Shown here piece after piece: positions 23,878-29,946 of a stretch of DNA of 64,000 nucleotides (position 1 is its first letter; each line of letters starts with the position of its first letter). The stretch is taken from contig NZ_CP076443.1 of NCBI RefSeq assembly GCF_018866345.1, positions 1-64,000 of the forward strand, in the 5' to 3' direction. Position numbers and translations under genes: made by a program. Below the pieces are notes generated by a model, which saw only the letters and a list, made by a program, of their open reading frames with translations, had not been told where the DNA came from and searched no databases. The stretch comes from Gemella sp. zg-570 (GTDB taxonomy: Bacteria > Bacillota > Bacilli > Staphylococcales > Gemellaceae).

Positions 23878-29946
<6,069 letters not shown>

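Follow-up and report, generated by a model that had tools for sequence, protein, structure and literature searches.

To our knowledge, the switching of transcription through a TA repeat that forms the spacer of a promoter has been described chiefly for a single Gram-negative locus, one that encodes fimbriae. The promoter region of hifA/hifB in Haemophilus influenzae contains a tract of (TA)9-11 that has been shown to control the fimbriae, and changes in its length have been proposed to alter the spacing between the -10 and -35 boxes (van Ham 1993 and Geluk 1998, both as cited in PMC2651432). In a single mycoplasma population, variation was observed in dinucleotide tracts of at least five units (PMC5476646), and a slippage-prone repeat within the gene is reported for the NanH3 sialidase of Gardnerella (Kurukulasuriya 2021, as cited in PMC10187134). 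Here we describe a promoter with a TA-repeat spacer in a stretch of 64,000 nucleotides (nt) from Gemella sp. zg-570 (positions 1 to 64,000 of contig NZ_CP076443.1; hereafter "the window"), where it precedes the gene for a NanA-type surface sialidase. We consider it probable that this is a hif-like contingency promoter, i.e., one that is subject to phase variation.

The promoter and its TA tract

The sequence-only reading of this DNA had described perfect TTGACA and TATAAT boxes with a pure TA spacer of 16 bases between them, and the description is exact at 29394-29367, with a 12/12 promoter match (Table 1). The repeat sits precisely between the -35 and -10 boxes; the whole alternating run measures 21 base pairs (bp; 29369-29389, 10.5 units), and the promoter is flanked on the minus strand by aagccc before TTGACA and by taaggt after TATAAT. 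A promoter scan of 28800-30200 returned it as the sole 12/12 match, the runner-up on the same strand reaching 9/12.

When a first-order Markov model is fitted to the window, the expected number of alternating TA runs of at least 21 bp is 4.8e-5 per genome; two are present, both of them in the window, where the other TA runs comprise one of 12 bp and a remainder of no more than 9 bp. The whole genome (1,558,665 bases in one contig) holds three TA runs of at least 16 bp, at 29369-29389, 42175-42195 and 554417-554434, the last in a phage-like region. The tract before the sialidase gene exceeds the length expected by chance and falls within the range known to slip.

The same genome contains 32 matches to TTGACA-N15-19-TATAAT (reversed control, 8), with spacers of 17 nt in 26 cases, 16 nt in three, 18 nt in two and 15 nt in one. 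The sialidase promoter is the only one of these 32 perfect-box promoters to have a TA spacer, and since no alternating AT run exceeds 6 nt in the spacers of the other 31, such a spacer is not a local promoter habit. Because the repeat unit is 2 bp, the spacer could step through 14, 16 and 18 nt and never reach 17 nt; given the sharp native preference for 17 nt, steps of this size should alter promoter strength.

In the mechanism that we favour, sigma-A RNA polymerase would recognise TTGACA and TATAAT, and replication slippage in the TA run would add or remove 2-bp units, moving the spacer along this series. In the sequenced state of 16 nt, one below the genome-preferred length, we would expect the sialidase gene to be ON with moderate strength; a spacer of 18 nt might give a similar strength, and spacers of 14 or 20 nt would leave the gene OFF or almost OFF. 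Wall-anchored sialidase would then be present on some cells of a clonal population and absent from others. We infer that slippage is frequent enough to matter, that the ON and OFF states are assigned as above and that the variation is of benefit.

TA promoters in related and distant genomes

Relatives were examined in a family set of 15 genomes in two genera, the window's genome included. A search for TTGACW with a (TA) tract of at least six units starting no more than two bases after it gave 11 distinct sites, spread over 7 of the 15 genomes (reversed control, 0); most of these sites end in a -10-like hexamer; one site (L086) is without a -10. Where a -10 box lies at the end of the tract, the spacers measure 9, 13, 13, 13, 15, 16, 16, 17, 19 and 19 nt, a range wider than that of the native promoters and one that would fit a drift of tract lengths between ON and OFF states. 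Two close sister species (G008 and G010) have one of these promoters in common, with 95% identity over 307 columns and products that are 97% identical, and their tracts differ by exactly 6 bp, or three TA units, with spacers of 13 and 19 nt. As far as the available sequences go, this is the sole direct sign of tract instability in the present analysis, and it lies between species and not within one. Among the other TA-promoter genes, orthologues in G001 lie in a different context, and the DNA upstream of an orthologue in G011 is ordinary, with no TA tract. The design of the promoter, the repeated occurrence of that design before surface genes of related species and the three-unit difference between the sister species would point together to phase variation, a reading that is partly supported.

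It is possible, although we would put it at slightly less than an even chance, that the family has a dispersed set of TA-spacer promoters. Such a set would amount to a small promoter-spacing phasome, built up one gene at a time in each species, with surface proteins, transporters and one or more PRD/Mga-like regulators under its control, and the sialidase would be this species' member of it. If the promoter of the regulator (L069) switches, its entire regulon would switch with it. Our literature search found no study that had phase variation in Gemella as its subject.

Outside the family, a search of 399 genomes of the class for TTGACW, zero to two bases and (TA)7 gave two genomes, that of the window and one other (G192), in which two paralogous genes for serine-rich repeat surface adhesins (L101 and L104) each lie behind TTGACA(TA)9CTGTATTAG. 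Across 84,980 species genomes, 14 loci fit TTGACA(TA)6N0-8TATAAT; the pure TA spacers in this pan-bacterial search are of 14 nt (three), 16 nt (four) and 18 nt (one), and 12 nt, although possible, was never seen. Two metagenome-assembled genomes of Bacilli from the rabbit gut (L044 and L045) have an almost identical TA promoter, with a 15-nt spacer, before related secreted proteins. On viral contigs the real -35 box gave 2 matches and two scrambled versions gave 0 each, all of these being small counts. The genes downstream of TA promoters encode mostly secreted or membrane proteins, and their open reading frames (ORFs) are enriched in hydrophobic N-termini, with 17 of 24 vs 74 of 188 in a background set (Fisher p = 0.004).

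TA runs of 28-36 bp were also noted in or beside palindromes (L066 2582-2617, L075 4042-4069 and L071 3987-4015), and these are possibly length-variable hairpins. GACGC(TA)18GCGTC lies 149 bp before a YSIRK adhesin gene; AGTCCG(AT)14CGGACT, placed between A and T runs and terminator-like, precedes an ABC transporter; and a long TA run adjoining a terminator-like hairpin lies 185 bp before the gene for a mucin-binding YSIRK protein.

Weighing the alternatives

Several points weigh against phase variation. The species is represented by one genome, and the length of the sialidase tract is that of a single assembly. The catalytic domain of the sialidase was missing from the other 14 family genomes searched, so that there is no orthologous promoter with which to compare it. 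In G008, a 1-nt insertion just after the start codon shifts the reading frame of the gene behind the variable tract, which may therefore be decaying. Three family TA promoters (those of the PRD regulator, L088 and L091) stand before genes that are not surface genes, and the enrichment of hydrophobic N-termini was measured against a crude background set that includes some spurious ORFs. The two rabbit-gut loci have equal tract lengths although their genes differ, a counter-example to rapid drift, and the paralogous adhesin genes of G192 likewise have tracts of equal length.

The conservation of tract length in these last two cases also speaks for the main rival to phase variation, namely that the TA spacer is structural: the promoter would be real, its strength or its response to supercoiling being tuned by a flexible spacer that melts easily, and selection would hold the length constant, leaving no switch. 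Purifying selection on spacing would make the pan-bacterial spacers cluster between 14 and 18 nt and leave 12 nt empty, as is observed. On the other hand, ordinary promoters of the same genome do without TA spacers, and this explanation is weakened both by the range of the family spacers, which include 9, 13 and 19 nt, and by the three-unit difference between the sister species; we regard it as unlikely.

We think it more doubtful still that the tract is a neutral microsatellite in AT-rich intergenic DNA and that the sialidase is transcribed from elsewhere in its 290-base leader or is under other control. Long TA runs do occur away from promoter boxes (at 42175 and 554417), the leader is long, and a weak 9/12 promoter match lies at 29134-29107, but a neutral run would hardly be expected to abut two perfect boxes or to recur at 11 family sites against 0 in the reversed controls. 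Chance or an assembly artefact is very improbable, for although short repeats can be miscounted in assemblies, only about 5e-5 such runs are expected per genome and independent genomes have the same design.

The sialidase and its counterparts in known systems

Phase variation of this promoter would act on a protein that had been read beforehand as a surface sialidase, and the assignment holds: the YSIRK and LPxTG signals and the Sialidase N and BNR domains all score above the Pfam cut-offs. Against pneumococcal NanA the protein scores 680 bits over amino acids (aa) 821-1298, with the YRIP, DERRLH, QNTES and AYNSLQE motifs intact, and the combination of Sialidase N and BNR domains, catalytic motifs, and secretion and wall-anchor signals identifies it as a NanA-type member of GH33. 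The leader of 290 bases between the -10 box and the ATG, likewise proposed earlier, is confirmed, and transcription would start at about 29360. The sialidase may also be a virulence factor.

Table 1. Features of the sialidase locus and genes found behind TA promoters in the family
Feature	Location	Strand	Remarks
-35 box TTGACA	29394-29389	-	6/6 consensus match
Spacer TATATATATATATATA, pure (TA)8, 16 nt	29388-29373	-	
-10 box TATAAT	29372-29367	-	6/6 match; first four bases within TA run
Leader, 290 nt from -10 to ATG	29077-29366	-	
Shine-Dalgarno AGGAGG	29083-29088	-	6 nt before ATG
NanA-type exo-alpha-sialidase, 1732 aa	29076-23878	-	intact ORF; behind TA promoter (window)
YSIRK signal	sialidase, aa 9-34		Pfam above cut-off
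Long low-complexity P/E/G/S-rich stalk	sialidase		
Lectin-like Sialidase N domain	sialidase, aa 641-811		Pfam above cut-off
Catalytic domain	sialidase, about aa 824-1298		BNR_2 Pfam match above cut-off
LPNTG anchor (LPxTG type)	sialidase		Pfam above cut-off
545-aa secreted protein	L070		behind TA promoter
Sulphur-transport membrane protein	L072		behind TA promoter
Signal-peptide protein	L074 152-751		behind TA promoter; ends LPKTSAVK at stop codon
Signal-peptide protein	L085 1560-2231		behind TA promoter; ends LPKTSAAK at stop codon
Membrane-anchored protein	L080		behind TA promoter
PRD/Mga-type transcription regulator	L069 2420-3901		behind TA promoter
Role unassigned	L088, L091		behind TA promoters

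The closest homologues of the sialidase in the class have 52-57% identity over the domains and all belong to one genus, which we take to be Streptococcus; they came from a separate genome search, a full-length search of the genome contigs having given no relative. No TA tract of at least 8 bp was found in the 400 bases upstream of these class homologues (L050-L062), which rules out that the tract was inherited along with the nanA family. We infer that the gene came from a streptococcus-like source and that the TA promoter arose or was gained separately.

Other features of the locus were recorded alongside. As a candidate riboswitch or structured RNA, the leader was rejected, with no Rfam match and folding no better than that of shuffles (z = +1.16). 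A weak cre-like site lies at 29421-29435, 27 bp before the -35 box; it departs from a loose consensus at 1 position and may be a chance match in AT-rich DNA. Inside the sialidase gene, near the C-terminal stalk, two 108-bp repeats (83% matches) lie at 24579-24797, and changes in their in-frame copy number could alter the length of the stalk. The second 21-bp TA run (42175-42195) is followed after 51 bp by a promoter distinct from it (TTGACA 42247-42252, 17 nt, TATTAT 42270-42275) that serves a gene for a choline-binding surface protein (42308-43621), an orthologue of which was sought in the family genomes and not found; between this run and the promoter there is an 11-bp direct repeat, TTTGTAACAAT (42198-42226), that resembles a regulator site. 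Among the family proteins, the two signal-peptide proteins from L074 and L085 end in a sortase-like motif but lack the membrane helix and charged tail that usually accompany it.

With the TA-spacer design used repeatedly in one Gram-positive family, where it precedes genes for a sialidase, other surface proteins, a transporter and a regulator, variation of the commensal surface could be tested there directly from reads that public archives already contain, and sialidase activity tests on single colonies could mislead. In our assessment, a recurrent family-wide set of TA promoters would be of more interest than the single sialidase locus, which would itself add to the known hif-type class.

The comparison with known systems places the elements of this locus in different company. 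Streptococcal NanA (PDB 5kky and relatives) resembles the present sialidase in its catalytic and lectin-like domains, YSIRK signal and LPxTG anchor, but the NanA homologues of the class have no TA tract upstream. The NanH3 sialidase of Gardnerella is also a surface or secreted enzyme, and its slippage-prone repeat is reported to lie inside the gene, whereas the present repeat lies in a promoter spacer and would act on transcription. The comparison with the Haemophilus hif locus, already drawn in the sequence-only reading, is apt, given the control of fimbriae by the (TA)9-11 tract described in PMC2651432: both loci have a TA dinucleotide tract of about 10 units, which controls a surface structure in hif and here lies upstream of a surface sialidase. 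At hif, however, two divergent promoters share the tract and switching has been demonstrated, whereas the present case, known from sequence, is that of one promoter in a Gram-positive host, placed before the gene for a sialidase enzyme.
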